A DNA stretch of 56,311 bases from a bacterium (GTDB lineage Bacteria; Desulfobacterota; Deferrisomatia; Deferrisomatales; Deferrisomataceae): positions 1 through 56,311 of the forward strand of contig JALUTY010000028.1 of NCBI GenBank assembly GCA_027021615.1, read 5' to 3'. Shown in pieces: positions 16,063-56,311 of this stretch. Below the pieces are notes generated by a model, which searched no databases, was not told the origin of the DNA, and worked only from the letters and a program-made list of their open reading frames with translations. The first letter of the stretch is position 1; each line of letters opens with the position of its first letter. The position numbers and the translations under genes are program-made.

Positions 16063-16497
16063 ATGTCCGATCCTGGGCCGTTTCGAGTCCTTGTGATCGA
16101 CGACGAGCCCGCGGTGGGAAGGACCCTGTGTCTCCACCTGCGCCTTCACGGCTACGAGTGCCAGGCATGCCACGACCCGGCCGAGGCCTTGGGGCTTCTG
16201 GAGGACGGGGGCGAGGAGCCCTTCCATCTGGTGATCACCGACATCGTGATGCCGGGCCTCGATGGGCTGTCCCTGATCCGACGGTGCCGGGACGAGGGGA
16301 ACCCGGTCCAGTTCGTGGTGATCACGGCCTACCACCAGCTCGATCGGGTGGTCGAGGCGTACCGGCTCGGGGTGCTCGACTACCTGGTGAAGCCTTTCGA
16401 GGGGTTGGACCAGGTCACCGACCTCGTGCGGCGAGCCGAGACCCGGTACCGACGGTGGCGGGAGCTCCTTGCGCAGGCATTGGAGACAGGCCCATGA
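16063..16497 (+). CDS. Stand-alone response regulator receiver protein
   Basis: A 144-residue CheY-like receiver with the acidic pair in VLVIDDEPAVG, phospho-acceptor Asp60 (HLVITDIVMPGLDG), Thr in VVITAYHQ and Lys in DYLVKPFEG. It has no output domain, only a short helical tail. The ATG has GGAGG six bases upstream. Its stop overlaps the next gene's ATG, so it is coupled to the winged-helix protein, which may be its partner. The kinase REC-HK two genes on is a plausible phosphodonor. Confidence 0.88.
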   Translation: MSDPGPFRVLVIDDEPAVGRTLCLHLRLHGYECQACHDPAEALGLLEDGGEEPFHLVITDIVMPGLDGLSLIRRCRDEGNPVQFVVITAYHQLDRVVEAYRLGVLDYLVKPFEGLDQVTDLVRRAETRYRRWRELLAQALETGP

Positions 16498-17090
16498 ACT
16501 GGCTCGATCAGGTGTTCTCGTCACCGGTGAAGGTAAAGGTGCTACGGATCGTGATCCGGCGTGGGGGGCTTTCGGGCCGGAGCATCGCGTCCGCGGCCGG
16601 GGTGGCACCGTCGGCCGCAAAACGGGCCTTGGACGCCCTGGTCCGGTTGGGGGTGGTTCGGCGAGGAGGATCCCCGGGGCGTCACCGATTCTACCTTTCC
16701 AGGACCCACTGGCTCGGCCGTGATCTCCAACGGCTGTTCGAGGCGGAGGCCGGGCTGGCCCACCGCGCTGCCGTGGTGGTGGAGCGGGAGCTGCGGGCTG
16801 CTCGCGTGGCGACCGATGTCGTGGCGGTTGGGATAGAGGAGGCGGGTCGAATCCAGGTGGCGTGTGGCCCCAGGGCGCCGATCCCGGAGGGGTTTCTCGA
16901 GCACCTGCAAAAGGTCCTGGCCGAGGAGGTAGGGCTGAGCTTCGGAGAGATCCACTGGGATCCCTCGGGGTCGCCTGAGATCGAATGGGTGTGGGTCTCG
17001 CGCTCCTTGGGCCCCCCCAGCCCCCCCGGCCCCACGTTTCTGCGCTATTTCGGCATCGGACCCGGCCCGGAGGGAGACCAGGATGACTGA
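16494..17090 (+). CDS. Winged helix-turn-helix protein of unknown target
   Basis: A 198-residue protein. Residues 1-80 form a winged helix of MarR/ArsR type (SPVKVKVLRIVIRRGGLSGR, then ASAAGVAPSAAKRALDALVR and VVRRGGSPGRHRFYLS). The remainder (VATDVVAVGIEEAGRIQVAC and on) recalls the nucleotidyltransferase-like regulators that follow such DNA-binding heads, but no catalytic motif is clear. It is coupled by overlaps to the receiver gene before it and to the REC-kinase after it. It is likely a transcription factor in the same signalling unit. The family is not firmly identified. Confidence 0.65.
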   Translation: MNWLDQVFSSPVKVKVLRIVIRRGGLSGRSIASAAGVAPSAAKRALDALVRLGVVRRGGSPGRHRFYLSRTHWLGRDLQRLFEAEAGLAHRAAVVVERELRAARVATDVVAVGIEEAGRIQVACGPRAPIPEGFLEHLQKVLAEEVGLSFGEIHWDPSGSPEIEWVWVSRSLGPPSPPGPTFLRYFGIGPGPEGDQDD

Positions 17091-42158: not shown

Positions 42159-42521
42159 ATGGATGTGGACGGGGCCGACCGCAGGATGATCGAGGAGGTG
42201 ATGCTGGCAGGGCTTCGGGCCGCGGTGCTTCTGCGGGGGGTGATGCTCCAGAGGGTGGACCGGGAGACCCTGGAGTGGGGGCTGGCCGAGCTGCGAGCCG
42301 GGGAGCTCATGGAGCGTTATCTGCCCCGGCTGGTGGAGAAGCCCGAGTGGGTGGACCTGCTCAACATCCTCCACCTGCTTTACAGCCTGGAGGGGCAGCT
42401 GGACTACCAGATCCGGGAGTACGGGATCGACTCCCTCAAGGACGACCTGCAGGAGATCAACGCGAGCCTCCACGGGATCGGTGGGCTCTTCGACCTGCCT
42501 GCTGCACGCCAGGCGGTGTGA
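42159..42521 (+). CDS. Unknown small helical protein
   Basis: A 120-residue acidic, helical protein: MIEEVMLAGLRAAVLLRGVM, then WVDLLNILHLLYSLEGQLDY. No Cys, membrane segment or known motif was seen. It lies 10 bases after the previous unknown gene, behind GAGGAGG. The pair probably act together. I do not recognise the family. Confidence 0.7.
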   Translation: MDVDGADRRMIEEVMLAGLRAAVLLRGVMLQRVDRETLEWGLAELRAGELMERYLPRLVEKPEWVDLLNILHLLYSLEGQLDYQIREYGIDSLKDDLQEINASLHGIGGLFDLPAARQAV

Positions 42522-42570
42522 CCGCGGGCGGTTCCGGCGAGAGGCTCGATCCACACCAGAGGAGAACACC

Positions 42571-43380
42571 ATGAAGCTCAAGGATCAGGTGGCCATCGTG
42601 ACCGGAGGCGCCCGGGGCAACGGGCTGGCCATTGCCAAGACCCTGGCCGGCGAAGGGTGCCACGTGGTCCTGGCGGACATCTGCCGGGACATCGACACGG
42701 TGCCCTACCCCCTGGCCACCCCGGAGGCCCTGGGGAAGGCGGTAAAGGAGCTTGAGGCCCTCGGGGTGAGATCGCTGGGCGTGGAGTGCGACGTGCGCTC
42801 CGCAGCGTCGGTGAAGGGGATGGTGGACCGGGTGAAGGAAGAGTTCGGCAAGATCGACATCCTGGTGAACAACGCCGGGGTCACGAGCCTCGTGCCGGTG
42901 GTGGACATGGACGAGGCCACCTGGGACGACACCCTGGACACCCACCTCAAGGGCACGTTCCTGTGCTGCCACTACGTGGTGCCCCACATGATCGAGGCCC
43001 ACTACGGCAAGGTGGTCTCCATCTCCAGCGTGGGGGGGCAGCGGGGGTTCGGGATGGGAGCCCACTACTGCGCCGCCAAGCACGGCATCCTGGGGTTCAC
43101 CAAGAGCCTGGCCATGGAGGTGGCCGACCACAACATCAACGTCAACGCCGTGTGCCCCGGCACCGTGTGGACCGCCATGATGCAGGGCCTGGCCGAGTAC
43201 TTCGGCATGGACCAGGGGGAGGCCAAGGAGCAGTTCTGCGAGGGCCACCTGTTCAAGGACCGGGAGATCACCCCGGAGGACGTGGCCCAGGCCGTGCTGT
43301 GGCTGTGCCTGCCCGAGAGCCGCTGCGTCACCGGCAGCATGATCACCGTGGACTCGGGCTGGACCGCGGCAGCCGGCTAG
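42571..43380 (+). CDS. Mycofactocin-coupled short-chain dehydrogenase
   Basis: A 269-residue SDR: TGGARGNG cofactor motif (11-18), NNAG (100-103), catalytic Ser153, Tyr166 and Lys170. Between strand 2 and helix 3 it carries the insert DICRDIDTVPYPLATPEALG (37-56), the hallmark of mycofactocin-system SDRs, in which NAD is held tightly and re-oxidised by mycofactocin. It oxidises an alcohol to a carbonyl; the substrate is unknown. The start ATG at 42571 follows GAGGAG. It lies directly before mftA, which supports the assignment. Confidence 0.92.
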   Translation: MKLKDQVAIVTGGARGNGLAIAKTLAGEGCHVVLADICRDIDTVPYPLATPEALGKAVKELEALGVRSLGVECDVRSAASVKGMVDRVKEEFGKIDILVNNAGVTSLVPVVDMDEATWDDTLDTHLKGTFLCCHYVVPHMIEAHYGKVVSISSVGGQRGFGMGAHYCAAKHGILGFTKSLAMEVADHNINVNAVCPGTVWTAMMQGLAEYFGMDQGEAKEQFCEGHLFKDREITPEDVAQAVLWLCLPESRCVTGSMITVDSGWTAAAG

Positions 43381-43537
43381 AGATTAGAAAAAAACGGGAG
43401 GAGCAGACGTTTGGAGGCGGTCTTGCGCAGGGAATGCTGGCACTGAGGACGGCATGAAGGGAGCTCTTGACGTCCCAACCTCTCAACGTCCCAGCCTTCT
43501 AGCCTTCCAACTTTCCAGCACCGAAAAGGAGCAAACC
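43381..43537 (+). other. mftA leader with repeats and a weak sigma-54-like site
   Basis: The stretch starts with GAGATTAGAAAAAAACGG directly after the SDR stop, a motif seen again after mftA. At 43412-43426 TGGAGGCGGTCTTGC has the sigma-54 -24 GG and -12 GC with correct spacing but a poor -24 box. Then comes the CCCAAC/CCCAGC-type repeat. No hairpin terminator was seen. Confidence 0.4.
43472..43519. repeat. Dispersed low-complexity repeat upstream of mftA
   Basis: GTCCCAACCTCTCAAC-type units ending in CTTTCCAGC; it resembles the stretch at 3748-3780 inside dnaE2. Units of 7-9 bases (CCCAGCC, TCTAGCC, TTCCAAC) drift in sequence. It is probably a dispersed repeat family of this genome. Confidence 0.55.
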
Positions 43538-43666
43538 ATGGAAGAGATCCTGAAGACCCCGGAACCCATGGTGGTCCACGATGAGACGCACGCCGAGGAG
43601 CCCGAGATCCTGGAGGAGATCGAGGTGGAGGAGCTCGCCATCGACGGGATCTGCGGGGTCTACTAG
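43538..43666 (+). CDS. mftA: Mycofactocin precursor peptide MftA
   Basis: A 42-residue acidic peptide ending in IDGICGVY, the diagnostic MftA C-terminus. The radical SAM enzyme MftC acts on the last two residues (Val41-Tyr42), decarboxylating and crosslinking them; the core is then released and glycosylated to give the redox cofactor mycofactocin. The leader (VEVEEL-type Glu-rich part) binds MftB. A good AAAAGGAG precedes the ATG. It lies between the SDR and mftB, as in classic loci. Confidence 0.96.
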   Translation: MEEILKTPEPMVVHDETHAEEPEILEEIEVEELAIDGICGVY

Positions 43667-43713: not shown

Positions 43714-43971
43714 GTGGAGACGAGGTGTCACGTTCTTCACCCCTCGTGCCGGGTGCGGCAGGAGGCCTTCGGGCTCCTGTTCTACGACATGCAGGGCCCC
43801 CGGCTCCTGTTCGCCCGCACGGGGGACATGCTCGACGCGGGCGTCATCGCCCGGGGCCTGCCGGTGGAGCAGGCCCTGCGGGCCCGGGCCCCGTCGTCGC
43901 GTGCGGCTGCCGAACGGCTGATCCTCCATCTCGTGGAGAAGGGGTTTCTTCGTGAGCAACCGGTTTGTTGA
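43714..43971 (+). CDS. mftB: Mycofactocin biosynthesis chaperone MftB
   Basis: An 85-residue PqqD-like protein (HPSCRVRQEAFGLLFYDMQG, then LIARG-type helix and LILHLVEKGFL). MftB binds the MftA leader and presents it to MftC. It starts at GTG 43714 behind GGAGGGAG and overlaps mftC by 20 bases. Sequence and context agree. Confidence 0.9.
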   Translation: METRCHVLHPSCRVRQEAFGLLFYDMQGPRLLFARTGDMLDAGVIARGLPVEQALRARAPSSRAAAERLILHLVEKGFLREQPVC

Positions 43972-45007
43972 GGCCGGCCTCTCGGCCCCGGTGAACGTGA
44001 CCTGGGAGGTCACCCTGGCGTGCAACCTGCGGTGCCGCCACTGCCTGTCGGCGGCCGGCCCGCCCGCCCCCCGGGAGCTGACCACCCAAGAGGCGGTGGG
44101 CCTGGTGGACGAGCTCCACCGGATGGGGGTGTTCCAGGTGAACTTCGGGGGGGGCGAGCCGTTCCTGCGGCCGGACTTCGAGGACATCCTGGCCGCGTGC
44201 CACCGCAGGGGCATCGTGACCTGCATCTCCACCAACGGCACCCTGCTCGACCGCGCCCGGGTGGAGCGGCTGGCCCGCAGCGGCATGGTGGCGGTCCAGG
44301 TGAGCCTGGACGGGGCCCGACGGGAGACCTGCGACGCCATCCGGGGGGAGGGCACCTACGAGCGGGCCCTGGAGGCCCTGGGGCTCCTGGCGGCGAGCCC
44401 GATCCCCACCAGCATCAACGCCGTGCTTACCTCGGCCAACGCCGACGAGATCCCCGAGCTCCACGACCTGGCCGGGGCCCTGGGGGTGGCGTTGCGGGTG
44501 AGCCGGTTCCGGCCCTCGGGCCGGGGCGCCGGTGCGTGGGACGAGCTCCGGCCCGACGCGGCCCAGCTGCTGGGGTTCGGCACGTGGCTCGCCGGTCGGG
44601 GGGACGTGCGCACCGGCGACAGCTTCTTCTCCCTGACCCCCCAGGAGCGGATGGGACTGGGCCTGAACCTGTGCGGGGCGGCCAAGCTCACCTGCTGCGT
44701 GGGGCCGGAAGGGGACGTCTACCCCTGCGCCTTCCTCCAGATGCCCGAGTTCCGGGCCGGGTCGGTGCGGGAGGAGCCCTTCGCCGGGATCTGGGAGGGC
44801 TCCCGGGTGTTCCGGGCCCTGCGGCGGCTTCGCATCCGCTCGTGCGAGTCGTGCCACCGGTTCGACCGGTGCCACGGCGGGTGCCCGGCGGTGGCGTACC
44901 ACCTGGGCCGGGACCTGGGCCGGGGCGACCCGGAGTGCCTGGAGCGGTGCGTCAGCGCTGTGGCCGCCGGCGGGCCCGGCCGGGCCCGCGAGGAGCTGGA
45001 ACCATGA
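43952..45007 (+). CDS. mftC: Mycofactocin radical SAM maturase MftC
   Basis: A 351-residue radical SAM enzyme. The CxxxCxxC motif is Cys24, Cys28, Cys31 in ACNLRCRHC. The C-terminal SPASM domain provides more Cys ligands (LCGAAKLTCCV, YPCAFLQM, SCESCHRFDRCHGGCP). The start PVNVTWEVTLACN matches MftC closely. It oxidatively decarboxylates the MftA C-terminal Tyr and forms the Val-Tyr crosslink. It starts at GTG 43952 inside mftB and its stop overlaps the OYE start. Confidence 0.96.
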   Translation: MSNRFVEAGLSAPVNVTWEVTLACNLRCRHCLSAAGPPAPRELTTQEAVGLVDELHRMGVFQVNFGGGEPFLRPDFEDILAACHRRGIVTCISTNGTLLDRARVERLARSGMVAVQVSLDGARRETCDAIRGEGTYERALEALGLLAASPIPTSINAVLTSANADEIPELHDLAGALGVALRVSRFRPSGRGAGAWDELRPDAAQLLGFGTWLAGRGDVRTGDSFFSLTPQERMGLGLNLCGAAKLTCCVGPEGDVYPCAFLQMPEFRAGSVREEPFAGIWEGSRVFRALRRLRIRSCESCHRFDRCHGGCPAVAYHLGRDLGRGDPECLERCVSAVAAGGPGRAREELEP

Positions 45008-46965
45008 CCTTCAAGCACCTGTTCTCGCCCCTGAAGATCGGGAAGGTGGAGGTGAGGAACCGCATCTCCTTCCAGCCCCACCTCACCAACTTCGCGGTGG
45101 ACTGCCTGCCCACCGAGCGCCACATGCACTACTGGGGCGAGCGGGCCCGGGGAGGGGTGGGGCTCATCATCACCGAGGAGATGAGCGTCCACCCCACCGA
45201 CCGGGCCTACGAGAAGCTCGTGGAGGTGTTCCATCCCGAGGTGATCCCCCACTTCCGCCGGATCGCCGACCGGGTGCACGAGTTCGAGGCCAGGATCTTC
45301 GCCCAGCTCAACCACAACGGCCAGCAGTGCGACGGCACGATCTCCAGGCTCCCGGTGTGGGCCCCGAGCCCCGTGCCGGACGTCCTGTTCCGGGAGACCC
45401 CCAAGGAGATGGAGCCCGAGGACATCGAGGAGGTGGCCCGGTACTTCGGCCGGTGCGCCGTGCACGTGCGGGAAGGGGGGTTCGACGGGGTGGAGCTCCA
45501 GTTCGGCCACTCCAGCCTGGCGCGTCAGTTCCTGAGCCCGCTCACGAACTTCCGCACCGACGAGTTCGGCGGGAGCCTCGAGAACCGCATGCGCGCGCCC
45601 CTCATGTTCATCGAGGCCGTGCGCCGGGCCGTGGGGGACGACTACACCGTGGGCATCCGGCTGTGCGCCGACGAGATGATCCCCGGGGGGCTCGACCTGG
45701 CCCAGGTCCAGGAGATCGCCCGGAGGTTCGAGGCCACGGGGCTCATCGACTTCATGGACCTATCCATCGCCACCTTCTACAACCTGTACCTGGTGGAGGG
45801 GTCGATGCACACCCCCCTCGGGTACACGGTCCCCCTGGCCGCGGGCATCCGGGAGAGCGTGAAGCTCCCGGTGTTCTGCACGGGCCGGATCAACGACCCG
45901 GTCATGGCCGAGAAGGTGCTGGCCGCCGGCCAGGCCGACATGATCGGCATGTGCCGGGCGCTGATCTGCGACCCGTTCCTCCCGAAGAAGGCCGAGGAGG
46001 GGCGTATGGAGGAGATCCGCTACTGCGTGGCCGACAACCAGGGGTGCATCGGCCGGATGGGGGTGAACAAGCTCCTGGGGTGCATCCAGAACCCGGCCGT
46101 GGGCCTGGAGGCCCGGTGGGGCGAGGGGAGCCTCCGGCCCGCCGCGGTGAAGAAGCGGGTGATGGTGGTGGGGGGTGGCCCGGCCGGGATGTGGGCGGCC
46201 AAGATGGCCGCGCTCCGGGGCCACCGGGTGGACCTGTACGAGCGGGGCGACGAGCTCGGGGGCCAGGTCCTGATCGCCATGAAAGGCGCGGGCCGGGACG
46301 AGTTCGGGGTGATCGCCCGCAACGAGAAGGCCCAGCTCGACCGGCTCGGGGTCACCGTGCACCTGGGGGTGGAGGTGACCGAGGCCATGGTGTTGGAGCA
46401 GGCCCCCGACGCGGTGATCGTGGCCACCGGGAGCGTGCCCAAGGCCCACCCCGTGGCCGGCGCGGACGGCCCGGCCGTGTTCAACGTGTGGCAGGTGCTC
46501 GAGGGGGAGGCCGAGGTGGGCCAGAGCGTGTGCCTCATCGACTACGACGGCCACCACCGGGCCACCTCCACGGCGGAGCACCTGGCGGACCGGGGGGTCG
46601 AGGTGCACATCATCACCTCGAGCCTGTTCGTGGGCGCCGAGCTGGGGCCGCTCCAGGACCTGTACCTCACCCGCCAGCGGCTCCTCCAGAAGGGGGTGAC
46701 CTTCACCCCGGACATCGCGGTGATGGAGGTCACGGGGGAGGCCGGCGACAAGCGGGTCAAGGGCTTCAACGTGTACTCCAACGAGTGGGGGGAGTGGGGG
46801 CCCTACGACTCCCTGGTGCTCGCCATGGGCCAGGAGGTGGACGACCGCCTGTACAAGGCTCTCAAGGGCAAGGTGAAGGAGCTCCACCGGATCGGCGACT
46901 GCGTGGCCCCCCGCAAAGTGGACATGGCCATCTGGGAGGGCCACAAGGTGGGGAGGGAGATCTGA
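45004..46965 (+). CDS. OYE/FadH-family flavoprotein of the mycofactocin system
   Basis: A 653-residue protein like 2,4-dienoyl-CoA reductase: an FMN TIM barrel (1-340), an Fe-S linker, and an FAD/NAD(P) domain (VMVVGGGPAGMWAAKMAALR near 385). OYE/FadH proteins recur in mycofactocin loci, but their role there is not settled; reducing or oxidising the cofactor is a possibility. In the Fe-S site the usual C-x2-C-x3-C-x11-C reads Cys341, Asp344, Cys348, Cys360: the second Cys is Asp (CVADNQGC). It overlaps mftC and etfA. Confidence 0.9.
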   Translation: MTFKHLFSPLKIGKVEVRNRISFQPHLTNFAVDCLPTERHMHYWGERARGGVGLIITEEMSVHPTDRAYEKLVEVFHPEVIPHFRRIADRVHEFEARIFAQLNHNGQQCDGTISRLPVWAPSPVPDVLFRETPKEMEPEDIEEVARYFGRCAVHVREGGFDGVELQFGHSSLARQFLSPLTNFRTDEFGGSLENRMRAPLMFIEAVRRAVGDDYTVGIRLCADEMIPGGLDLAQVQEIARRFEATGLIDFMDLSIATFYNLYLVEGSMHTPLGYTVPLAAGIRESVKLPVFCTGRINDPVMAEKVLAAGQADMIGMCRALICDPFLPKKAEEGRMEEIRYCVADNQGCIGRMGVNKLLGCIQNPAVGLEARWGEGSLRPAAVKKRVMVVGGGPAGMWAAKMAALRGHRVDLYERGDELGGQVLIAMKGAGRDEFGVIARNEKAQLDRLGVTVHLGVEVTEAMVLEQAPDAVIVATGSVPKAHPVAGADGPAVFNVWQVLEGEAEVGQSVCLIDYDGHHRATSTAEHLADRGVEVHIITSSLFVGAELGPLQDLYLTRQRLLQKGVTFTPDIAVMEVTGEAGDKRVKGFNVYSNEWGEWGPYDSLVLAMGQEVDDRLYKALKGKVKELHRIGDCVAPRKVDMAIWEGHKVGREI

Positions 46966-47993
46966 TGCCCCCGGCCCGCGAGGACCTCCTGGTGCTCGTG
47001 ACCCCCGGGAAGGACGGGCTCGGGGACACGGCCAAGGGGATGGTCTCGGTGGGGCGCCGGGCTGCCGCGCGCCTGGGGCTCGCCTGGGCGGCCGCGGTGC
47101 TCGCCGACGGCGAGGACCCGGAGCTGCCGGAGGCCGCCCTGGAGACCCTGGCGGACCACGGCGTCCCCGGGGTCCTGGTGATCCGGGCCGGCCGCCCCCT
47201 GGCCGACTTCCCCGAGGCCCGGGCCGAGGCCCTGGCCGGGGCGGCCCGGGCCCGGGCCGCCCGGCTCGTGCTCATGGCCCACGACAGCGCGGGGGCCTCC
47301 CTGGCCCCCCGGGTGGCCGCGGCCCTGGGGGGGGCCGTCCTCACCGAGTGCGTCTCGGTGGAGCCGGGGGGCGGGGGGGTGCGGGTCTCCCGCAGGGCCC
47401 TGGGGGACCGGCTGGCCGAGACCTTCCTGTGGGACCGGGCCTCGCCCCTGGTGCTCACGGTGCACCCGGGGTGCCTGAGCCCGGTGCCCCCGGCCGGGCC
47501 GGCCGGGGGGCGCCCGGTCGTGGAGGCCGTGGAGGCGCCGGTGCCCGACGGGGCGTTCCGGTCCCGGGTGGTGGAGCGCATCCCCCCGGATCCGCGCACC
47601 GTGGACGTGTCGGAGGCCGAGGTCATCTTCTGTGCGGGCAAGGGGTTCGACCGGGAGAGCTTCGAGCGGTTCCGGGAGCTCGCCGGGCTCCTGAACGCGA
47701 GCCTCGGGGTGTCCCGCCCGGTCTACGACCTGGGGTGGGCCGGGTTCGAGCGCATGATCGGCCAGACCGGGAAGACCGTGGCACCCCGGCTGTACCTGGG
47801 GGTGGGCATCTCGGGGTCCATGCACCACGTGGGGGGCATCCGGGACGCCCGGCGGATCGTGTGCCTGAACCTCGACCCCCGGGCCCCCATGTTCGCCGCG
47901 TCCGACGAGGGGTTCGTGGCGGACCTGCGCGAGGTGATCCCGCTGCTCCTCGACCGGGTCCGGGCCCGGGTGGCCGGGGGAGGTGCCCCGTGA
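46965..47993 (+). CDS. etfA: Electron transfer flavoprotein alpha subunit
   Basis: A 342-residue EtfA. The C-terminal FAD domain is clear: GISGSMHHVGGIRDARRIVC, then DPRAPMFAASDEGFVADL. With EtfB (49605) it forms a two-subunit flavoprotein that passes electrons from dehydrogenases to the membrane. It overlaps the OYE and fixC-like genes, so the ETF is made with the mycofactocin proteins and is probably their dedicated outlet. Confidence 0.92.
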   Translation: MPPAREDLLVLVTPGKDGLGDTAKGMVSVGRRAAARLGLAWAAAVLADGEDPELPEAALETLADHGVPGVLVIRAGRPLADFPEARAEALAGAARARAARLVLMAHDSAGASLAPRVAAALGGAVLTECVSVEPGGGGVRVSRRALGDRLAETFLWDRASPLVLTVHPGCLSPVPPAGPAGGRPVVEAVEAPVPDGAFRSRVVERIPPDPRTVDVSEAEVIFCAGKGFDRESFERFRELAGLLNASLGVSRPVYDLGWAGFERMIGQTGKTVAPRLYLGVGISGSMHHVGGIRDARRIVCLNLDPRAPMFAASDEGFVADLREVIPLLLDRVRARVAGGGAP

Positions 47994-49288
47994 GGAGGTC
48001 CTTCGAGGCGGTGGTGGTGGGGGCCGGCCCGGCCGGGGCGGCAGCGGCCCTGGGCCTGGCGCGCTCCGGGGTGGACGTGGCCCTGCTGGAGCGGGGCGCG
48101 TTCGCCGGCGAGAAGAACATGTTCGGGGGCCTTCTCCACCGGATGCCGGCCCTGGAGGCCGTGTTCCCGGACTTCTGGGACCGGGCGCCCCTGGAGCGCC
48201 ACGTGGTGCGAAAGAGCCTGTGCTTCCTGACCGGGGAGGCGGGCTTCACGGTCCAGTTCGAGACCGGGGCCTTCGACCGGCCCCCCTACAACGGGTACAC
48301 CGTGCTCCGGCCGGTGTACGACGCGTGGCTGGCCGAGGAGGCCCGCCGCGCCGGTGCCGCCTGCCTCACCCGGTGCACGGTGGACGACCTGATCCTGGAG
48401 GGGGATGCGGTGCGGGGGGTGCGGGTGCTCCGGGACGGGGGGGAGATCCGGGCCCCCGTGGTGATCGCGGCCGACGGGGTGCTCTCGCTCACGGCCCTCA
48501 AGGCGGGGCTCCGGCAGCCTCGGCTCGACCCGGACGGGATGGCCGTGGGGGTGAAGGCCCTGATCGACCTTCCCCGGCCGGCGATCGAGGACCGGTTCGG
48601 CCTCGTGCGGGACCAGGGGGCCTCCATGGAGTTCGTGGGGTGCACGGCGGGCGTGCGGGGCGGGGGGTTCCTGTACACCAACCGGGACAGCGTCTCGGTG
48701 GGGCTCGTGCTCCACATCGGGAGCCTCCGGGACAGCGGAAGGACCCCCTACGACCTGCTCAACGCCTTCCTGGAGCACCCCATGATGGCGAAGCTCCTGC
48801 GGGGCGGGCGCCTCCTGGAGTACTCGGCCCACGTGATCCCCGAGGGGGGCTACGACGCCATGCCCCGGCTCTGCGGGGACGGCATCCTGGTGGCCGGGGA
48901 CGCCGCCGGGCTGTGCTACGCCACCGGGCTCAACCTGGAGGGGATCAACCTGGCCGTCCACTCCGGGCTGCTCGCGGCCGAGACCGTGGCGGAGGCCCGG
49001 CAGAGCGGGGACCTCTCCGCCCGGGCCCTGGGGCGCTACCGGGAGAAGCTCGAGGGGAGCTTCGTGCTCCAGGACCTCAAGCTCTTCCGCCGGGCCCCGC
49101 GGATGCTCCATATCGACCGGCTGTACGGGGCCTACCCCGAGGTGATCTGCGAGCTCATGGAGCGGGTGTACCGGATCGACGGCAGCCCCAAGCGCCGGCT
49201 CGGGAGGCTCCTCGCCGGGACCACCCGGGAGAAGGTGGGGCTCCGGGCCCTGCTGGCCGACGCCCTTACCGCGTGGAGGTCGGTATGA
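47990..49288 (+). CDS. FixC-like ETF:quinone oxidoreductase flavoprotein
   Basis: A 432-residue FAD protein of the FixC/ETF-QO family: VVVGAGPAGAAAALGLARSG at the start, GDAAGLCYATGLNLEGINLA as the second FAD motif, and the FixC ending (LFRRAPRMLHIDRLYGAYPE). It oxidises reduced ETF and passes electrons to quinone at the membrane, or bifurcates in FixABCX complexes. It starts at GTG 47990, overlapping etfA, and ends on the fixX start. Confidence 0.92.
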   Translation: MRRSFEAVVVGAGPAGAAAALGLARSGVDVALLERGAFAGEKNMFGGLLHRMPALEAVFPDFWDRAPLERHVVRKSLCFLTGEAGFTVQFETGAFDRPPYNGYTVLRPVYDAWLAEEARRAGAACLTRCTVDDLILEGDAVRGVRVLRDGGEIRAPVVIAADGVLSLTALKAGLRQPRLDPDGMAVGVKALIDLPRPAIEDRFGLVRDQGASMEFVGCTAGVRGGGFLYTNRDSVSVGLVLHIGSLRDSGRTPYDLLNAFLEHPMMAKLLRGGRLLEYSAHVIPEGGYDAMPRLCGDGILVAGDAAGLCYATGLNLEGINLAVHSGLLAAETVAEARQSGDLSARALGRYREKLEGSFVLQDLKLFRRAPRMLHIDRLYGAYPEVICELMERVYRIDGSPKRRLGRLLAGTTREKVGLRALLADALTAWRSV

Positions 49289-49572
49289 GACGGGTCAACG
49301 TGGAGGACATTTTCGACCTCACCGGGTTCGCCGTGGACCAGGAGCCCCACATCGTCCTGGACCCGCAGATCTGCCGGTCGTGCGACCACCGGGGCTGCGT
49401 CACGGCCTGTCCGGCCGGGTGCTACACCTGGTCCGAGGAGGACCGGCAGATGGGCTTTGTGTACGACGGCTGCCTGGAGTGCGGCACCTGCTACATCGTG
49501 TGCGACAAGGGGGCCTTCACCCGGTGGCGCTACCCCCGGGGCGGCTTCGGGGTGTCGTACCGGATGACGTGA
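49285..49572 (+). CDS. FixX-like ferredoxin
   Basis: A 95-residue ferredoxin with Cys30, 33, 38, 42 (CRSCDHRGCVTAC) and Cys63, 66, 69, 73 (CLECGTCYIVC), plus the FixX tail (WRYPRGGFGVSYR). FixX is the Fe-S subunit paired with FixC. It starts at ATG 49285, overlapping the fixC-like gene. Confidence 0.93.
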   Translation: MRRVNVEDIFDLTGFAVDQEPHIVLDPQICRSCDHRGCVTACPAGCYTWSEEDRQMGFVYDGCLECGTCYIVCDKGAFTRWRYPRGGFGVSYRMT

Positions 49573-49604
49573 GGGGCTCCACGAAGGGGTTGGGGAGCTG
49601 GAAG

Positions 49605-50504
49605 ATGACCGCAAACGGCTTGAGCGTCGTGGTGCTCCTCCGGGAGGTTCTGGACCCCCGGCCCCCGGTCCGGCTTGCCGGGGGGGGCGTCATGGTCCGG
49701 GAGCCTGGGCCCCGGCGGCTGGTGAACCCGGCGGACCTGGAGGCCCTGGAGGAGGCGATGCTCCTGGCCGAGGGGCGCGGCGCCCGGGTCACGGCCGTGG
49801 CCGTGGGGCCCGGTCGGCGCCTGGAGGACGGCCTTAGGCTCGCCCTGGCCATGGGGGCCCACCGGGCCGTCAGGGTGGACGGCCCCGGCCTGTGGGAGGG
49901 CGACGCCGTGGCCCGGGCCCGGGTGCTGGCCCGGGTGGTGGAGATCCTGTCCCCCTCCCTGGTCCTGGCCGGGGCGCGGCTCCTGGACCGGGGGGACGAC
50001 CCGGCTCCGGCCCTTGCCGCGGCCGGTCTGGGGCTGCCGTGCTGCACGCCGGTGGTCTCGGCCCGGGTGGGGGACGGGGAGGCCACGGCCACCCGCAAGG
50101 CCGACCGGGGCGCCCGGGACGTGGTAGCCCTGCCCCTGCCGTGCGTGCTCCTGATGGAGGGCGGGGCTCGGGAGCCCCGGTACCCGGACCTGGACGCGGT
50201 GCTGGCGGCCCTGGGGGCTCCAGTGGAGACTTGGGGCCTTCCCGAGCTGGGCCTGCCGGAGCGGGCGGTGGGGGAGCACGCCGCGCTGCTGCGCCCCGAG
50301 CGGCTCGTCCACCCCCGGCCGGACCCGACGCCGGTGCCCACCCCGGACCCGGACGCCCCGGCGTTCGAGCGGATCCGGACGCTCCTGTCCGGGGGCATCC
50401 GGGCCCGAGCGGGCCGGGTGCACGAGGGGAGCGCCGGGGAGGTGGTGGAGGGTCTGCTCCGGATCCTCGAGGAGGAGGGGCTCCTCCAGGGGGCGGCGCC
50501 GTGA
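49605..50504 (+). CDS. etfB: Electron transfer flavoprotein beta subunit, divergent
   Basis: A 299-residue EtfB: LSVVVLLREVLDPR, VNPADLEALEEAMLLAE, VTAVAVGP and TATRKADRGARDVVALP segments. It has about 40 extra residues at the end (SGGIRARAGRVHEGSAGEVV and on), like EtfB proteins of other mycofactocin loci. The alpha and beta genes are separated by fixC- and fixX-like genes, an unusual order. It overlaps mftF by 4 bases. Confidence 0.85.
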   Translation: MTANGLSVVVLLREVLDPRPPVRLAGGGVMVREPGPRRLVNPADLEALEEAMLLAEGRGARVTAVAVGPGRRLEDGLRLALAMGAHRAVRVDGPGLWEGDAVARARVLARVVEILSPSLVLAGARLLDRGDDPAPALAAAGLGLPCCTPVVSARVGDGEATATRKADRGARDVVALPLPCVLLMEGGAREPRYPDLDAVLAALGAPVETWGLPELGLPERAVGEHAALLRPERLVHPRPDPTPVPTPDPDAPAFERIRTLLSGGIRARAGRVHEGSAGEVVEGLLRILEEEGLLQGAAP

Positions 50505-51937
50505 GGTACGCCCTGGCCCCCCGGGTGAAGGTGCGCCCCGCGCCCGAAGGCGCGTGCCTGGTGCTGGAGCGCCCCCTGCGGGTGGTGCGGGTCAACCGGG
50601 CCCTGGCCGCCCTGGTGGACCGGTGCAGCCGGGAGCCGGTGACCCCCGCGGATCCCGGGCAGGAGCAGGCCCTGGCGGCCCTGGCCCGGGGGGGGATCCT
50701 GGAGCGGGTCCCGGAGGCCGGAGACCCGGAGGCGCTCCCCTCGGTGAGCGTGGTGATCCCGGTCCGGGACCGTGCCGGCGAGCTCGCCCGGTGCCTGGAG
50801 TCCCTGGGGAGGGTGAGGTACCCCCGCGACCGGCTCGAGGTGATCGTGGTGGACGACGGGAGCCGTGATGAGACCCCCCGGGTGGCCCGGGAGCACGGGG
50901 CCCGGGTGGTGGGGTCGGGGGGGAGCGGCCTGGGCCCGGCCGCGGCCCGCAACCGGGGGGTGGCCGCGGCCTGGGGGGAGATCCTGGCCTTTCTCGACTC
51001 CGACTGCACCGCGTCGGCGGGCTGGCTCGCCGACCTGGTGGGCCGGTTCGCCGACCCGGCCGTGGCCGCCGTGGGGGGGCGGGTGGAGGGCATGCACGTG
51101 GCCTCGCGCCTCGACCGGTACGAGGCGGCCATGTCGAGCTTGAGCCTGGGCACGCGGTGCCGCTCGGCCCAGGGGGGAGACGACACGTTCTACCTGCCCA
51201 GCTGCAACCTGTTGGTGCGCCGCAGCGCGTTCCTGGAGGTGGGAGGGTTTCGGGACGGGATGCACGTGGGGGAGGACGTGGACCTCACCTGGCGTCTCCG
51301 GGACCGGGGATGGCGGGTGGAGTACACCCCCACGGGCTGGGTGTGGCACGAGCACCGAAGCCGGCTCCGGGCGTTCCTGCGGCGGCGGTTCGAGTACGGC
51401 ACCTCCGAGGCGGCGCTCCAGGCCCTGCACCCGCGCCGCCGGAAACGCATGGCGCTTCCCCCGGCGCTTACCGCGGCCCTGGTGCTCCTGGCGGCCGCGG
51501 CCCTGGGCGCGGGCCGGGTCCCGGCCGCCGGGGCGGCCGCGCTCGTGGGGGCCGACGCCCTGCGGGTGCGGGTCCGGCTGGCCCGACGCCAGGTCCCCGT
51601 GGGGTGGGCCCGGGTGCTGAGGGCCAGGCTCCGGGCCCTGGGGAGCCTCGCCTACTATCTGGGGGCCCACGGGGTGCGCTACTACGGGCTTCCCGCGGTG
51701 CTCGCCGGGGTCCTGTGGCCCGCGGCTGGGGCCCTGGGGCTCGCGGTGCTGGCCGGGGTGGGGTGGGTGGAGCACCGCACCCGCAGGCCGGCGCTCCCGT
51801 ACCCCGTGTTCCTGGCCCTGTACGCGGCCGAGAGCCTGGCCTACGGCCTGGGGGTCCTGTGGGGGTGCATGAGGCGAGGGAGCTTCTCGTCCTACCGGCC
51901 CGTCCTGCACCGCCATTTGAAAATGCCCCTCGGGTAG
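50501..51937 (+). CDS. mftF: Mycofactocin glycosyltransferase MftF
   Basis: A 478-residue membrane-linked family 2 glycosyltransferase. Residues 1-75 form a short PqqD-like head. The GT2 core has SVVIPVRDRAGELARCLESL, VVDDGSRDET (near 116) and FLDSDCT (near 166), then GEDVDLTWRLRDRGW. Three or more hydrophobic segments follow at about 325-450. MftF adds glucose units to the crosslinked mycofactocin core. It starts at GTG 50501, overlapping etfB. Confidence 0.9.
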   Translation: MRYALAPRVKVRPAPEGACLVLERPLRVVRVNRALAALVDRCSREPVTPADPGQEQALAALARGGILERVPEAGDPEALPSVSVVIPVRDRAGELARCLESLGRVRYPRDRLEVIVVDDGSRDETPRVAREHGARVVGSGGSGLGPAAARNRGVAAAWGEILAFLDSDCTASAGWLADLVGRFADPAVAAVGGRVEGMHVASRLDRYEAAMSSLSLGTRCRSAQGGDDTFYLPSCNLLVRRSAFLEVGGFRDGMHVGEDVDLTWRLRDRGWRVEYTPTGWVWHEHRSRLRAFLRRRFEYGTSEAALQALHPRRRKRMALPPALTAALVLLAAAALGAGRVPAAGAAALVGADALRVRVRLARRQVPVGWARVLRARLRALGSLAYYLGAHGVRYYGLPAVLAGVLWPAAGALGLAVLAGVGWVEHRTRRPALPYPVFLALYAAESLAYGLGVLWGCMRRGSFSSYRPVLHRHLKMPLG

Positions 51938-52008: not shown

Positions 52009-52842
52009 ATGAGCACCGATCTTGGGGACAAGAGGCAACGCCTGTACGACATCTTGAGGGAAATGGGCGGGGTGGTGGTGGGGTTCTCCGGCGGGGTGGA
52101 CTCTTCGTACCTGTTCGCCGCCGCGGTGGAGGTGCTCGGGGATCGGGCCCTCGGGGTCACGGCCTGCTCCGAGACCTTTCCGGAGCGGGAGCGCCGGGAG
52201 GCCGAGGCCCTGGCCCGGCGCCTGGGCGGGCGGCACCGGCTGGTCGCGTCGGAGGAGCTCGACGTGCCGGGCTTCGCGGAGAACCCTAGGAACCGGTGCT
52301 ACTTCTGCAAGAAAGAGCTCTTCGCCAGGCTCTGGGAGGTGGCCCGGGAGGAGGGGCTTCCCCACGTGGCCGACGGGTCCAACGTGGACGACCGGGGGGA
52401 TTACCGGCCGGGCCGCCAGGCGGCCCGGGAGCTCGGGGTCCGAAGCCCCCTGGACGAGGCCGGGCTCACCAAGGACGACATCCGGGCCCTGTCCAAGGAG
52501 ATGGGGCTCCCCACCTGGGACAAGCCGGCCTTCGCGTGCCTGTCGTCCCGGTTCCCCTACGGAACCCCGATCACCCGGGAGAAGGTCTCCCAGGTGGGCC
52601 GGGCCGAGGACGCCCTGTGGCGGCTCGGGCTCCGGGTGCTCCGGGTGCGCCACCACGGGGACGTGGCCCGTCTCGAGCTCGGGCCGGAGGAGTTCGAACG
52701 GGTCGTGAACGGCCTGCGCGACGAGGTGGTCCGGGCGGTCAAGGGGGCCGGGTACACCTACGTGGCCCTGGACCTCCAGGGGTACCGCACCGGCGCCATG
52801 AACGAGACCCTCTCGGACCTCGGCCCCGGGGGCGGCCCGTGA
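52009..52842 (+). CDS. larE: LarE, sulfur transferase for the nickel-pincer cofactor
   Basis: A 277-residue PP-loop enzyme: SGGVDSS (28-33) binds ATP, and Cys177 in FACLSSRFPYG is the sulfur-donor position of LarE. Cys97 and Cys100 (NRCYFCKKEL) are also present; the three-Cys version is known in LarE proteins that hold a 4Fe-4S cluster and act repeatedly rather than sacrificing their Cys. It makes the dithio-carboxylate arms of the nickel-pincer nucleotide cofactor. Its start, ATG 52009 behind GGAGG, is 71 bases after mftF. Confidence 0.92.
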   Translation: MSTDLGDKRQRLYDILREMGGVVVGFSGGVDSSYLFAAAVEVLGDRALGVTACSETFPERERREAEALARRLGGRHRLVASEELDVPGFAENPRNRCYFCKKELFARLWEVAREEGLPHVADGSNVDDRGDYRPGRQAARELGVRSPLDEAGLTKDDIRALSKEMGLPTWDKPAFACLSSRFPYGTPITREKVSQVGRAEDALWRLGLRVLRVRHHGDVARLELGPEEFERVVNGLRDEVVRAVKGAGYTYVALDLQGYRTGAMNETLSDLGPGGGP

Positions 52843-53615
52843 GCCCGGAGAGCCTGCGCCGGCTCCTGGAGAGCCTGCGGCGCGGGGAGGTGACCACCGA
52901 GGAGGTCCTCGATCGGGTCAAGGCCATGTCCTTCGAGGACGTGGGGTTCGCCAAGATCGACCACCACCGCCGCATCCGAAACGGGTACCCGGAGGTGGTC
53001 TACGGCGAGGGGAAGACCCCGGAGCAGGTGGCCGAGATCTTCTCGCGCCTAGCTAGGGAGAACGCCAACGTGCTGTGCACCCGGGCCAGCCGCCCCATCG
53101 CCGATGCCGTGCAACAGCGGGTGCCCGAGGCGCGCTACCACGAGCTGTGCCGACTCCTGGAGGTGCGGAGGGACCCGAGCCAGGTGGTGGGGGGGGTGGC
53201 GGTGGCGGCCGCCGGCACGTCGGACCTGCCCGTGGCCGAGGAGGCGGCGATCTCCCTGGAGGTGTTCGGCAGCCGGGTGGAGCGGCTCTACGACGTGGGG
53301 GTTGCGGGGATCCACCGGCTGTTCGCCCACGCTGACGTCCTCCGGCAGGTCAACTGCGTGGTGGCCGTGGCGGGCATGGAGGGGGCGCTGCCGTCGGTGA
53401 TCGCTGGGCTCGTGGACGTACCCGTGATCGCGGTGCCCACCAGCGTGGGCTACGGGGCGAGCTTCGGGGGGATCACGGCGCTCCTGGCCATGCTCAACTC
53501 CTGCGCCTCGGGCATCAGCGTGGTGAACATCGACAACGGGTTCGGGGCCGCCTACCAGGCCGACATGATCAACAAGCTCGTGACCCGTGGAGGTCGGAAG
53601 GAGTCGCCATCATGA
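52839..53615 (+). CDS. larB: LarB, nicotinic acid adenine dinucleotide carboxylase
   Basis: A 258-residue protein of the PurE-like LarB family: a helical N-terminus (LRRLLESLRRGEVTTEEVL), then DHHRRIRNGYPEVVYGEGKT, and a PurE-like core (VVGGVAVAAAGTSDLPVAEE, VIAVPTSVGYGASFGGITAL). LarB carboxylates and hydrolyses nicotinic acid adenine dinucleotide in the first step of the nickel-pincer cofactor pathway. GTG 52839 overlaps larE; its stop overlaps larC. Confidence 0.93.
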   Translation: MSPESLRRLLESLRRGEVTTEEVLDRVKAMSFEDVGFAKIDHHRRIRNGYPEVVYGEGKTPEQVAEIFSRLARENANVLCTRASRPIADAVQQRVPEARYHELCRLLEVRRDPSQVVGGVAVAAAGTSDLPVAEEAAISLEVFGSRVERLYDVGVAGIHRLFAHADVLRQVNCVVAVAGMEGALPSVIAGLVDVPVIAVPTSVGYGASFGGITALLAMLNSCASGISVVNIDNGFGAAYQADMINKLVTRGGRKESPS

Positions 53616-54448
53616 AGCGGATCCTGTACCTGGACGCCCGTGCCGGGGTGAGCGGTGACATGTTCGTAGGGGCGCTGCTCGACGCCGGGGCGAGCCTGGG
53701 GGTGATACGCGAGCACGTGGCCGGCCTGGGAGTCGGTGGGATTCGGCTCGAGGCCCGGAAGGTCACCCGGAGGGGGGTCGTGGGCACGAAGTTCCACGTT
53801 CTGGACCCGGAGACCCGCGCCCCGGTGGACCAGGCGCCGTCCGCCCATCCGGGGCACCACCACGGGGGCCGCCACCACGGCCACGGGCATCCCCACCACC
53901 CCCGGCGGGGGCTCCGTGAGATCCTGGCGATCATCGGGGAGGCCCCCCTGCCGGAGCCGGTGGGCCGGGACGCGGCCGGGGTGTTCCGGCTCCTGGCCGC
54001 TGCCGAGGCCCGGGTCCACGGGACGACTCCGGACGAGGTGCACTTCCACGAGGTGGGCGCCCTGGACGCCATCGCCGACATCGTGGCCGGGTGCTCGGCG
54101 TTCCACCAGCTCGGCGTGGACGAGGCCTGGTGCTCCCCCGTGCACGTGGGAAGCGGCACCGTGCGGTGCGCCCACGGGGTGCTCCCGGTGCCGGCCCCGG
54201 CCACCGCCGAGATCCTGCGGGGCGTGCCCGTGTACTCCGATGGCACGCGCGGGGAGCTGGCAACCCCGACGGGGGCGGCCCTGATCCGCTACCTCTGCCA
54301 AAGCTTCGGGGCCATGCCTCCCATGGAGATCGAGGGGTCGGGCTGGGGCGCCGGAGCAAGGGACCATGGCGTCCCCAACATGCTTCGGGCGACGGTGGGG
54401 ACCCTGGCGGAGCGCGAGGACGGGGCCCGCATCGCTTGTGCCTGCTGA
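53612..54448 (+). CDS. larC: LarC N-terminal half (LarC1); C-terminal half absent
   Basis: A 278-residue protein: LYLDARAGVSGDMFVGALLD start, a His-rich loop (AHPGHHHGGRHHGHGHPHH) for nickel, and VHFHEVGALDAIADIVAG. This is the LarC1 part of the nickel insertase. Complete LarC is about 400-430 residues, in lactobacilli joined by a programmed frameshift to LarC2, which binds CTP. Here the frame ends in ARIACAC and only 117 bases follow before the next gene, so LarC2 is not here. Either LarC2 lies elsewhere or this short form works alone. Confidence 0.9.
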   Translation: MKRILYLDARAGVSGDMFVGALLDAGASLGVIREHVAGLGVGGIRLEARKVTRRGVVGTKFHVLDPETRAPVDQAPSAHPGHHHGGRHHGHGHPHHPRRGLREILAIIGEAPLPEPVGRDAAGVFRLLAAAEARVHGTTPDEVHFHEVGALDAIADIVAGCSAFHQLGVDEAWCSPVHVGSGTVRCAHGVLPVPAPATAEILRGVPVYSDGTRGELATPTGAALIRYLCQSFGAMPPMEIEGSGWGAGARDHGVPNMLRATVGTLAEREDGARIACAC

Positions 54449-54565: not shown

Positions 54566-56311
54566 ATGAGTGAGCGGATCGTGCGAGTGAACATGCGGAC
54601 CCAGGAGGTGAAGGAGGAGCCGGTGCCGGAGAGGTGGAAGCTGTTCGGCGGCCGGGCCATGACCTCGGCGGTGGTGGCCGAGGAGGTGCCGCCCACCTGC
54701 ACGGCTTTGGGGCCGGCGAACAAGCTGGTGTTCGCCGGGGGGCTGTTGGGCGGGTCGGCCGCGCCGATCTCGGGCCGGATCTCGGTGGGGGCGAAGAGCC
54801 CCTTGACCGGCACCATCAAGGAGTCGAACGCGGGGGGCCAGGCGGGTCAGATCCTGGCTCGCCTGGGCATCCGGGCGCTGGTGATCGAGGACCAGCCGGC
54901 GGACCCGGACAAGCGCTACACCCTGGAGGTACGCAAGGGCTCGGTGAGGCTGGTGGAGAGCCCGGAGCTCAAGGGGCTGGGCAACTACGACACCGTGGCC
55001 GAGCTGGTGGAGAGGTACGGGGAGAAGAAGGTGGGGTTCATCACCATCGGCCAGGCCGGGGAGATGGGGCTCACCGCGGCGTCGGTGGCGTGCACGGACC
55101 GGGAGATGCGGCCGACCCGGCACGCGGGGCGGGGGGGGCTGGGGGCGGTGATGGGGTCGAAGGGGCTAAAGGCCGTCGTGCTGGACGACTCCGAGACCCA
55201 GATGCGCCAGCCCGGGGACAAGGAGGCGTTTCGGGAGGCGTCGAAGAAGTTTGCCAAGGCCCTGAAGGAGCACCCGGTCACGGGGGAGGGGCTTCCCACG
55301 TATGGGACGAACGTGCTGCAGAACATCATCAACGAGGCCGGGGGGCTTCCGACCCGGAACTTCCGGGAGGGGCGGTTCGAGGGGGCGTCGAAGATCTCGG
55401 GGGAGGCGCAGCACGACGTGATCCTGGAGCGGGGGGGCAAGATCGCGCACGGGTGCCACTCGGGGTGCGTGATCCAGTGCTCTCGGATCTACATGGACAA
55501 GGACGGCAACTACAAGACGAAGGGTCCGGAGTACGAGACGATCTGGAGCTTCGGCACGGACTGCTGCATCGACGACCTGGACGCGATCGCGGAGATGGAC
55601 CGTTTGTCGGACGACATCGGGCTGGACACGATCGAGATGGGGGCGACCCTGGCCGTGGCGATGGAGGCGGGGCTGGCGAAGTTTGGGGACGCGAACGCGG
55701 CGATCGAGCTGATGAAGGAGGTGGGTCGGGGCACGCCGTTGGGGCGGATCCTGGGGTGTGGGGCCAAGGTGACGGGCCAGTGCTTTGGGGTGGCGCACGT
55801 GCCGGTGGTGAAGGGTCAGGCCATGCCTGCCTACGAGCCGCGGGCGATCCAGGGGATCGGGGTGACGTATGCGACCTCCACGATGGGGGCGGACCACACG
55901 GCGGGCTACGCGATCGCGACGAACATCCTGAAGGTGGGCGGCTACGTGGACCCGCTGAAGCCGGAGGGGCAGGTGGAGCTGAGCCGGAACCTGCAGATCG
56001 CCACGGCAGCGATCGACTCCACGGGGCTGTGCCTGTTCGTGGCGTTTGCGGTGATGGACAAGCCGGAGGCGTTCGAGGCGGTCTACGAGATGATCAACGC
56101 GTTCTACGGCACGAGCCTGGGGCCGGACGACGTGACGGAGCTGGGCAAGGCGGTGCTGGCGATGGAGCGCAGGTGGAACGAGGCGGCCGGGTTTACAAGC
56201 GCGGACGACCGGTTGCCGGACTGGATGTACCGGGAGCCGCTGCCCCCCCACAACACGGTGTTCATGGTGCCCGACGAGGAGCTCGACCAAGTGTTCAACT
56301 TCGTCGAGTAG
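54566..56311 (+). CDS. aor: Tungsten-containing aldehyde:ferredoxin oxidoreductase
   Basis: A 581-residue protein of the AOR family, complete with its stop at the last base of the window. The N-terminal beta domain includes RISVGAKSPLTGTIKESNAG for the pterin cofactor. The 4Fe-4S ligands are Cys297, Cys301, Cys305 (GCHSGCVIQC) and Cys489 (DSTGLC), the standard set. The enzyme oxidises aldehydes to acids with ferredoxin as electron acceptor, or reduces acids. It ends the operon, after a hairpin, behind GAGGAGG. It is a natural partner for the alcohol-oxidising enzymes upstream. Confidence 0.94.
   Translation: MSERIVRVNMRTQEVKEEPVPERWKLFGGRAMTSAVVAEEVPPTCTALGPANKLVFAGGLLGGSAAPISGRISVGAKSPLTGTIKESNAGGQAGQILARLGIRALVIEDQPADPDKRYTLEVRKGSVRLVESPELKGLGNYDTVAELVERYGEKKVGFITIGQAGEMGLTAASVACTDREMRPTRHAGRGGLGAVMGSKGLKAVVLDDSETQMRQPGDKEAFREASKKFAKALKEHPVTGEGLPTYGTNVLQNIINEAGGLPTRNFREGRFEGASKISGEAQHDVILERGGKIAHGCHSGCVIQCSRIYMDKDGNYKTKGPEYETIWSFGTDCCIDDLDAIAEMDRLSDDIGLDTIEMGATLAVAMEAGLAKFGDANAAIELMKEVGRGTPLGRILGCGAKVTGQCFGVAHVPVVKGQAMPAYEPRAIQGIGVTYATSTMGADHTAGYAIATNILKVGGYVDPLKPEGQVELSRNLQIATAAIDSTGLCLFVAFAVMDKPEAFEAVYEMINAFYGTSLGPDDVTELGKAVLAMERRWNEAAGFTSADDRLPDWMYREPLPPHNTVFMVPDEELDQVFNFVE

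Follow-up and report, generated by a model that had tools for sequence, protein, structure and literature searches.

An OYE-type flavoenzyme and a split electron transfer flavoprotein operon in mycofactocin loci: a candidate electron-exit chain

Why should the two genes of an electron transfer flavoprotein (ETF) stand on either side of fixC- and fixX-like genes within a mycofactocin locus? The question is raised by a 56,311-nt stretch, hereafter the window, of contig JALUTY010000028.1 (GCA_027021615.1) from a member of the Deferrisomataceae (Desulfobacterota). The gene order is mftA-mftB-mftC-OYE2-etfA-fixC-fixX-etfB-mftF, where OYE2 encodes a flavoenzyme of the OYE type. We find that the block OYE-etfA-fixC-fixX-etfB (the module) occurs in a total of 16 mycofactocin loci from three phyla and two domains, and that mftD is absent wherever the module is carried. 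The interval from etfA to etfB (46965-50504) is probably the relay part of a dedicated mycofactocin electron-exit chain, and we propose that this one chain may replace the steps of both MftD and MftG. Its parts are ordinary; their assembly is unusual and widely conserved.

42481..43380, + strand: mycofactocin-coupled SDR dehydrogenase, likely a mycofactocin-using alcohol dehydrogenase (NF040490, 503 bits, cut-off 385)
43454..43666, + strand: mftA, mycofactocin precursor of variant type, C-terminus IDGICGVY (NF040489, 38 bits, cut-off 30; TIGR03969, 32.8 bits, cut-off 25)
43714..43971, + strand: mftB, chaperone (TIGR03967, 57.6 bits, cut-off 33)
43952..45007, + strand: mftC, radical SAM maturase (TIGR03962, 358 bits, cut-off 265)
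45004..46965, + strand: OYE2, flavoenzyme with FMN, Fe-S and dinucleotide domains, TMADH-FadH-NCR family, proposed electron donor to EtfAB (TIGR03997, 966 bits, cut-off 793)
46965..47993, + strand: etfA, ETF alpha, FAD loop IGQTGKTVAP (PF00766, PF01012; best model NF038209 mft_etfA, 146 bits, below its cut-off of 240)
47990..49288, + strand: fixC-like ETF:quinone oxidoreductase flavoprotein (PRK10015, 1e-108; PF21162, ETF-QO ubiquinone-binding, 32.4 bits, cut-off 27.7)
49285..49572, + strand: fixX-like ferredoxin with two 4Fe-4S motifs (PRK15449, 1e-19, below its equivalog cut-off)
49605..50504, + strand: etfB, ETF beta, 299 aa, with a C-terminal insert (PF01012, 1.8e-28; best model TIGR04503 mft_etfB, 89 bits, below its cut-off of 200)
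50322..50420, + strand: the EtfB C-terminal insert, about residues 240-272, a marker of OYE-coupled ETFs (alignments)
50501..51937, + strand: mftF, glycosyltransferase (TIGR03965, 398 bits, cut-off 280)

Distribution of the module and exclusion of mftD

With mftA, mftB, mftC and mftF all above curated cut-offs, this is by those models a genuine mycofactocin locus. A sequence-only reading of the window had described ETF genes split around fixC/fixX-like genes at this place, and the coordinates prove exact, with protein families and mycofactocin models in agreement. The overlapping gene ends that it reported are found at etfA/fixC and fixC/fixX (4 nt each), as well as at OYE2/etfA (1 nt) and etfB/mftF (4 nt), but fixX and etfB are separated by a gap of 32 nt. 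The order does depart, as claimed, from the fixA-B-C-X seen in Rhizobium, yet it is the standard one for the mycofactocin module across three phyla.

The phylum sample comprises 395 genomes, with MftC above cut-off in 17 of these; we analysed 18 regions around the MftC genes and then further stretches (relatives are labelled L for loci and G for genomes). The full block OYE2-etfA-fixC-fixX-etfB is present in eight loci of the phylum (the window, L045, L049, L051, L052, L053, L054, and L057). In seven others (L041, L042, L043, L047, L050, L081, and L138) the fixC-fixX slot after etfA is filled by a pair, namely a multihaem cytochrome c and a membrane protein of 624 residues in which a Pfam-only scan finds a 4Fe-4S and two CCG domains; etfB lies 3' of this pair in the four loci where the contig continues (L042, L043, L050, and L138). 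We take the cytochrome and the membrane FeS/CCG protein to resemble ETF:menaquinone oxidoreductases of the EMO type, which are not homologous to FixC/FixX. Because this pair fills the slot between etfA and etfB, the constant part of the module is an ETF with a quinone-side enzyme, and FixCX is interchangeable with the EMO-like pair. In a further locus, L080 of G295, the contig stops at etfA.

Overall, OYE and ETF genes accompany MftC in 15 of the 17 genomes. They belong to the mycofactocin locus in all of these but the fragmented G113 and also G295, in which they stand some 20 kb away from mftC or on another piece of contig. Of the remaining two genomes, G380 has MftD, and the contig of G142 breaks off about 310 nt past mftC. 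OYE2 itself exceeds its cut-off in 15 of the 395 genomes, and 14 of these belong to the 17 with MftC (Fisher P = 5e-22, not tree-corrected), and in the fifteenth, G392, an mftC fragment adjoins OYE2.

The same association is seen on plasmids. Among 12 plasmid records with an mftC at least 43% identical to that of the window, eight carry the module (six Streptomyces and the haloarchaea Haloterrigena turkmenica and Halolamina) and four, from Thermomicrobium, Streptomyces NBC_00080, Tsukamurella, and Mycolicibacterium chubuense, carry mftD and no module. The eight top-scoring plasmid records for OYE2 coincide with the eight module-bearing mycofactocin plasmids, and FixC, compared with 437 plasmid records, has its best relative in the mycofactocin-linked copy of S. 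lavendulae. In two bacterial phyla the module is flanked by mftC and mftF, and in haloarchaea it adjoins mftF; L087 (Streptomyces NBC_00564) has no annotated mftF after the module. On the Halolamina plasmid an SDR gene stands between fixX and etfB. The same junction in L053, from the near relative G021, is interrupted by GC-rich repeats (15611-16765; about 1.3 kb, period 507 nt) that the window lacks.

Carriers of the module lack mftD. MftD is above cut-off in one of the 17 MftC genomes, G380, and tblastn recovers it in only the four module-less records among the 12 mftC plasmids. When the 15 genomes with OYE and ETF genes, counted as module carriers and searched whole, are combined with eight plasmid loci of 25 kb, none of the 23 module carriers has mftD, whereas all five mycofactocin carriers that lack the module (G380 and four plasmids) do. 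The Fisher P values, which are not corrected for kinship, are 1e-5 with both sets pooled, 0.002 when only plasmids are counted, and 0.06 when only genomes are. This table leaves out G142, whose MftD-family fragments (162.6 and 52.7 bits) fall below cut-off, and second loci of one genome (L048, L055) are not counted as separate genomes. Both the mftD state and the module state occur within Actinomycetota and within the phylum of the window. Leaving aside the second loci of module-bearing genomes, no mycofactocin genome or plasmid locus that lacks MftD and can be read far enough is without the module. MftG is above cut-off in 0 of 17 MftC genomes, and so in none of the 15 module genomes; among the four plasmid loci with mftD, two have an annotated MftG. 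MftG and the module are both missing from G380 and from the Thermomicrobium locus, which makes MftD the stricter of the two counterparts to the module.

These patterns meet two gaps in the literature, for which the module offers a concrete, assayable candidate. In one study, 17 Saccharopolyspora clusters have TIGR03997 and lack mftD; the function of TIGR03997 is called unknown there, the section on these clusters makes no mention of ETF genes, and the MftD-less S. erythraea is said to make a methylated mycofactocin (PMC11162802). Another finds no MftG in about 25% of MftC genomes and does not settle whether a different enzyme stands in for it (PMC11778925). The association of mycofactocin with ETF is already known to curators, since NCBIfam has mft_etfA (NF038209), mft_etfB (TIGR04503), and the mycofactocin families TIGR03997/TIGR03996 (OYE_2, OYE_1), of which window OYE2 passes TIGR03997. 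A full-text search for mycofactocin together with electron transfer flavoprotein returned no paper, and the literature searched, which covers mycofactocin papers in part, yielded no description of the OYE2-ETF chain, the EtfB insert or the MftD exclusivity.

OYE2, the ETF subunits and the quinone-side enzyme

OYE2 lies directly 5' of etfA in all eight FixCX loci of the phylum and on all module plasmids, and as the neighbour of etfA it is likely the electron donor to EtfAB. The sequence-only reading had taken the interval 46965-50504 for a dedicated mycofactocin:quinone oxidoreductase. A conserved, mycofactocin-linked ETF with a quinone oxidoreductase is indeed encoded there, but the likeliest contact with mycofactocin or its precursor is OYE2, which lies outside that interval, and EtfAB and FixCX would form the relay behind it. 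In a quick tree run without bootstrap, one branch (SH-aLRT 100) separates all 32 mycofactocin OYEs, drawn from three phyla, from 11 further OYEs of the window's phylum, among them some from OYE-ETF operons outside mycofactocin loci; three incomplete or frame-shifted rows were left out. The OYE is the component whose mycofactocin copies form one clade.

Alignments show that the GxGxxG found in FadH is not kept in the second Rossmann domain of mycofactocin OYEs, where a degenerate motif resembles that of trimethylamine dehydrogenase (TMADH) and histamine dehydrogenase. According to PMC6502838, these two enzymes pass electrons to ETF through a 4Fe-4S cluster, and NCR has no NADPH site. The missing NAD(P)H motif is therefore no proof by itself that OYE2 uses ETF. 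The predicted model of OYE2 (pLDDT 80.5) matches over its full length the folds of NCR (Z = 36.6), FadH (35.0), TMADH (34.0), HisD amine oxidase (33.2), and histamine dehydrogenase (32.9), a comparison that would fit oxidase-like and reductase-like roles alike. The second cysteine of the 4Fe-4S motif is replaced by aspartate (CxxDxxxC...C) in seven of eight single-OYE phylum loci and in the first OYE of two-OYE loci (rows from the window, L040-L057, L079, and L080), and the second OYE of the two-OYE loci keeps the cysteine. An Asp-ligated cluster in OYE2 is, judging from these alignments, possible.

The nearest known parallel would be the TMADH-ETF-ETF:quinone oxidoreductase chain of Methylophilus, in which an OYE-type flavoenzyme with flavin and 4Fe-4S cluster gives single electrons to ETF, the donor role proposed here for OYE2. 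The degenerate second nucleotide motif is shared, and the best match of the mycofactocin EtfB profile is 1o94, the TMADH-ETF complex (171.9 bits vs. 169.8 for the next). That OYE2 is simply a TMADH was rejected, as the cysteine of the cysteinyl-FMN is missing. The chain also differs from that of TMADH in its EtfB insert, its split FixC/FixX quinone enzyme and, presumably, its substrate.

EtfB carries the extra C-terminal stretch that had been noticed before, at about 30-40 residues (about 240-272); it is absent from ordinary EtfB and kept in relatives. It consists of a Pro-rich linker and a predicted helix (253-262) in a low-confidence region of the model. Of 18 mycofactocin EtfBs whose C-terminus can be read, 17 have the insert (the one miss is L089). 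So do all five EtfBs from OYE-ETF operons that lie apart from mycofactocin loci, but not one of nine intact EtfBs from other contexts. These counts exclude L050 (no C-terminus) and the controls L098 (unreadable tail) and L119 (cut). It thus tracks the OYE partner, not mycofactocin or FixC, and serves as a sequence mark for OYE-coupled ETFs in general. Specificity for mycofactocin was rejected, given the non-mycofactocin OYE-linked EtfBs that carry the insert, and docking of FixC is weakened by its presence in EMO-type and partnerless OYE-ETF operons. Because the insert accompanies OYE-linked EtfBs whatever the quinone partner, and no others, it probably helps to dock the OYE.

Both ETF subunits of the window fall below the cut-offs of the mycofactocin models, EtfA with 146 of 240 bits for mft_etfA and EtfB with 89 of 200 for mft_etfB, yet these are their best-scoring models. 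Streptomyces loci pass, and the EMO-type and haloarchaeal EtfA and EtfB tested are well below. In window-type EtfBs the NQ-type loop, which binds the beta nucleotide, is changed.

Window FixC and FixX have the FAD domain, the quinone-binding domain and a FixX-type ferredoxin, and are predicted to form an ETF:quinone oxidoreductase of FixC/FixX type that reduces quinone. The closest solved relative of FixC is 7koe_C, the FixC of T. maritima EtfABCX. Neither protein matches any mycofactocin-specific model; both cysteine sets of FixX are conserved in the mycofactocin copies aligned.

The sequence-only reading proposed trees of EtfB and FixC, to see whether they join other mycofactocin-linked copies or fall within fatty-acid or nitrogen-fixation clades. 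Within the phylum the former is what we find for FixC and EtfA, with the eight loci forming one clade in each case (100/99 and 98/93, respectively). Across phyla the picture is less firm: five Streptomyces FixCs form another clade (100/100), all 13 bacterial rows share one side of a branch in the best tree with weak support (63/79), and a single FixC clade that includes haloarchaea is not rejected (p-AU 0.098). The EtfA groups are likewise firm within phyla but not between them. In the best trees both proteins lie outside the nif-linked clade, nif FixC having its own starred branch with one relative from the window's phylum, but the test does not reject joining EtfA of the window type to that of the nif type (p-AU 0.249). 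The first EtfA and FixC trees were rebuilt without very long rows, and L084, a near-copy of L083, was left out.

A proposed mycofactocin electron-exit chain and its alternatives

The direction of flow, the substrate of OYE2 and the quinone acceptor are what we infer, and the proposed route is as follows. The mycofactocin-coupled SDR would oxidise an alcohol to an aldehyde with mycofactocin, yielding mycofactocinol. OYE2, TMADH-like and with no obvious NAD(P)H site, would abstract a hydride, and with it two electrons, at C3 of the mycofactocin ring. It would pass the electrons one at a time to EtfAB, which would reduce FixC/FixX and, through it, a membrane (mena)quinone. The aldehyde may go to the adjacent aldehyde:ferredoxin oxidoreductase. 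OYE2 would act at C3 of mycofactocinol in its reoxidation and, in biosynthesis, at C3 of AHDP, giving premycofactocin without MftD. A single chain could serve for both steps because they oxidise the same C3, which becomes a ketone from the amine of AHDP in one and from the alcohol of mycofactocinol in the other. Electron flow to menaquinone would be favourable, since PMC11778925 gives -255 mV for the premycofactocin couple (PMFT) vs. -74 mV for menaquinone. Like MftG, a GMC mycofactocinol dehydrogenase for which the same paper proposes such a role, the chain would bring mycofactocinol electrons to the respiratory chain, unlike MftG through an unrelated protein family.

That the OYE2-EtfAB-FixCX-quinone chain serves mycofactocin in some way we consider likely. 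That it replaces the MftD step is slightly favoured, and for the MftG step the chances appear even. A broader version is tentative: OYE2-EtfAB-FixCX, or OYE-EtfAB-EMO, might act without O2 as both premycofactocin synthase and mycofactocinol dehydrogenase in three or more phyla, with the EtfB insert docking the OYE.

Several observations weigh against such a chain. Two genomes, G047 (L041, L048) and G265 (L052, L055), have a second mycofactocin locus without the module, and the absence of both MftG and module in G380, as in the Thermomicrobium locus, means that MftG loss alone does not require the module. The fold scores place OYE2 slightly nearer to the reductases NCR and FadH than to TMADH, a leucine is aligned with the flavin-bound cysteine of TMADH, and one cluster cysteine of window OYE2 is the aspartate described above. 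The ETF beta of the TMADH complex has 264 residues, apparently too short for the insert, so not every OYE-type donor seems to need one. The EtfA and FixC trees resolve no single mycofactocin clade, a dedicated respiratory relay looks overbuilt for a biosynthetic step of one turnover, and the function proposed for the chain is read from genes and sequence.

Narrower roles divide the two steps. If OYE2/EtfAB-FixCX replaced MftD only, it would oxidatively deaminate AHDP to premycofactocin and another enzyme would reoxidise mycofactocinol. The perfect exclusion of mftD fits this role, as do G380 and the Thermomicrobium locus; TMADH and histamine dehydrogenase are full-length relatives that donate to ETF (PMC6502838), and MftD-less S. 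erythraea is reported to make the cofactor (PMC11162802). An ETF with a quinone oxidoreductase, sometimes with a multihaem cytochrome, is nevertheless a large capacity for one turnover per cofactor molecule, and MftG too is missing from all 15 module genomes, so that we regard this role as rather doubtful. Replacement of MftG only, with OYE2 oxidising mycofactocinol, EtfAB-FixCX receiving the electrons and an unrelated, unlinked enzyme forming premycofactocin, would agree with the absence of MftG from all 17 MftC genomes, with the substitutes left open for the quarter or so of MftC genomes without it (PMC11778925), and with the aldehyde:ferredoxin oxidoreductase neighbours, which suggest alcohol-oxidation flux. 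It is unlikely, as it leaves the MftD step unexplained although the absence of mftD is the stricter correlate, and no other flavoenzyme is constant across module loci.

Other readings make mycofactocin incidental. OYE-ETF operons without mftC do exist in the phylum (L129, L130, L132, L133, L135, and L137), with FixCX, an EMO-like pair or no visible partner, and the module could be a catabolic dehydrogenase for an external substrate that merely neighbours the mycofactocin genes. Its position between mftC and mftF in two bacterial phyla and beside mftF in haloarchaea, the separate clade of mycofactocin OYEs and the strict mftD exclusion make this improbable. More remote still is a bifurcating complex of FixABCX type, passing electrons from NADH to ferredoxin and menaquinone and simply located here. 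FixABCX and EtfABCX complexes have homologous EtfA, EtfB, FixC, and FixX, FixC and FixX have relatives in T. maritima EtfABCX, which bifurcates, and two cluster motifs persist in FixX, but the module has a different gene order, its ETF is always paired with an OYE, and the beta-nucleotide loop of window-type EtfBs is altered as noted above. The group-2 bifurcation motifs, taken from PMC10734219 (where subunit naming is swapped, i.e. their EtfA is EtfB here and vice versa), are also missing. Specifically, RxGV is absent from 18 of 18 mycofactocin EtfBs and RPxFGG from 23 of 23 EtfAs, one haloarchaeal EtfA having the near motif RPAYGG, against their presence in two of two and three of three nif-type or nif-neighbouring controls, respectively. 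The GxxSPTxV motif was dropped, having failed in nif-type controls also.

Neighbouring genes

Two further features lie 3' of the locus.

52009..54448, + strand: larE, larB, larC, nickel-pincer cofactor genes, directly 3' of mftF (TIGR00268, NF033503, TIGR00299, all above cut-off)
54566..56311, + strand: aldehyde:ferredoxin oxidoreductase, running off the contig end (PF01314, 290 bits; PF02730, 203 bits)

MftE is above cut-off in none of 19 phylum genomes with mycofactocin loci, which have only distant creatininases (up to 127.7 bits). The genes larE, larB, and larC also adjoin the mycofactocin loci L044, L052, and L057, and L048 has larB and larC only; these loci include ones with and without the ETF module. 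One idea for such neighbours is a LarA-type racemase working on the alcohol substrate. Matches to aldehyde:ferredoxin oxidoreductase occur near mycofactocin loci in 12 of the 18 regions examined (L040-L057), which suggests alcohol-to-acid pathways.

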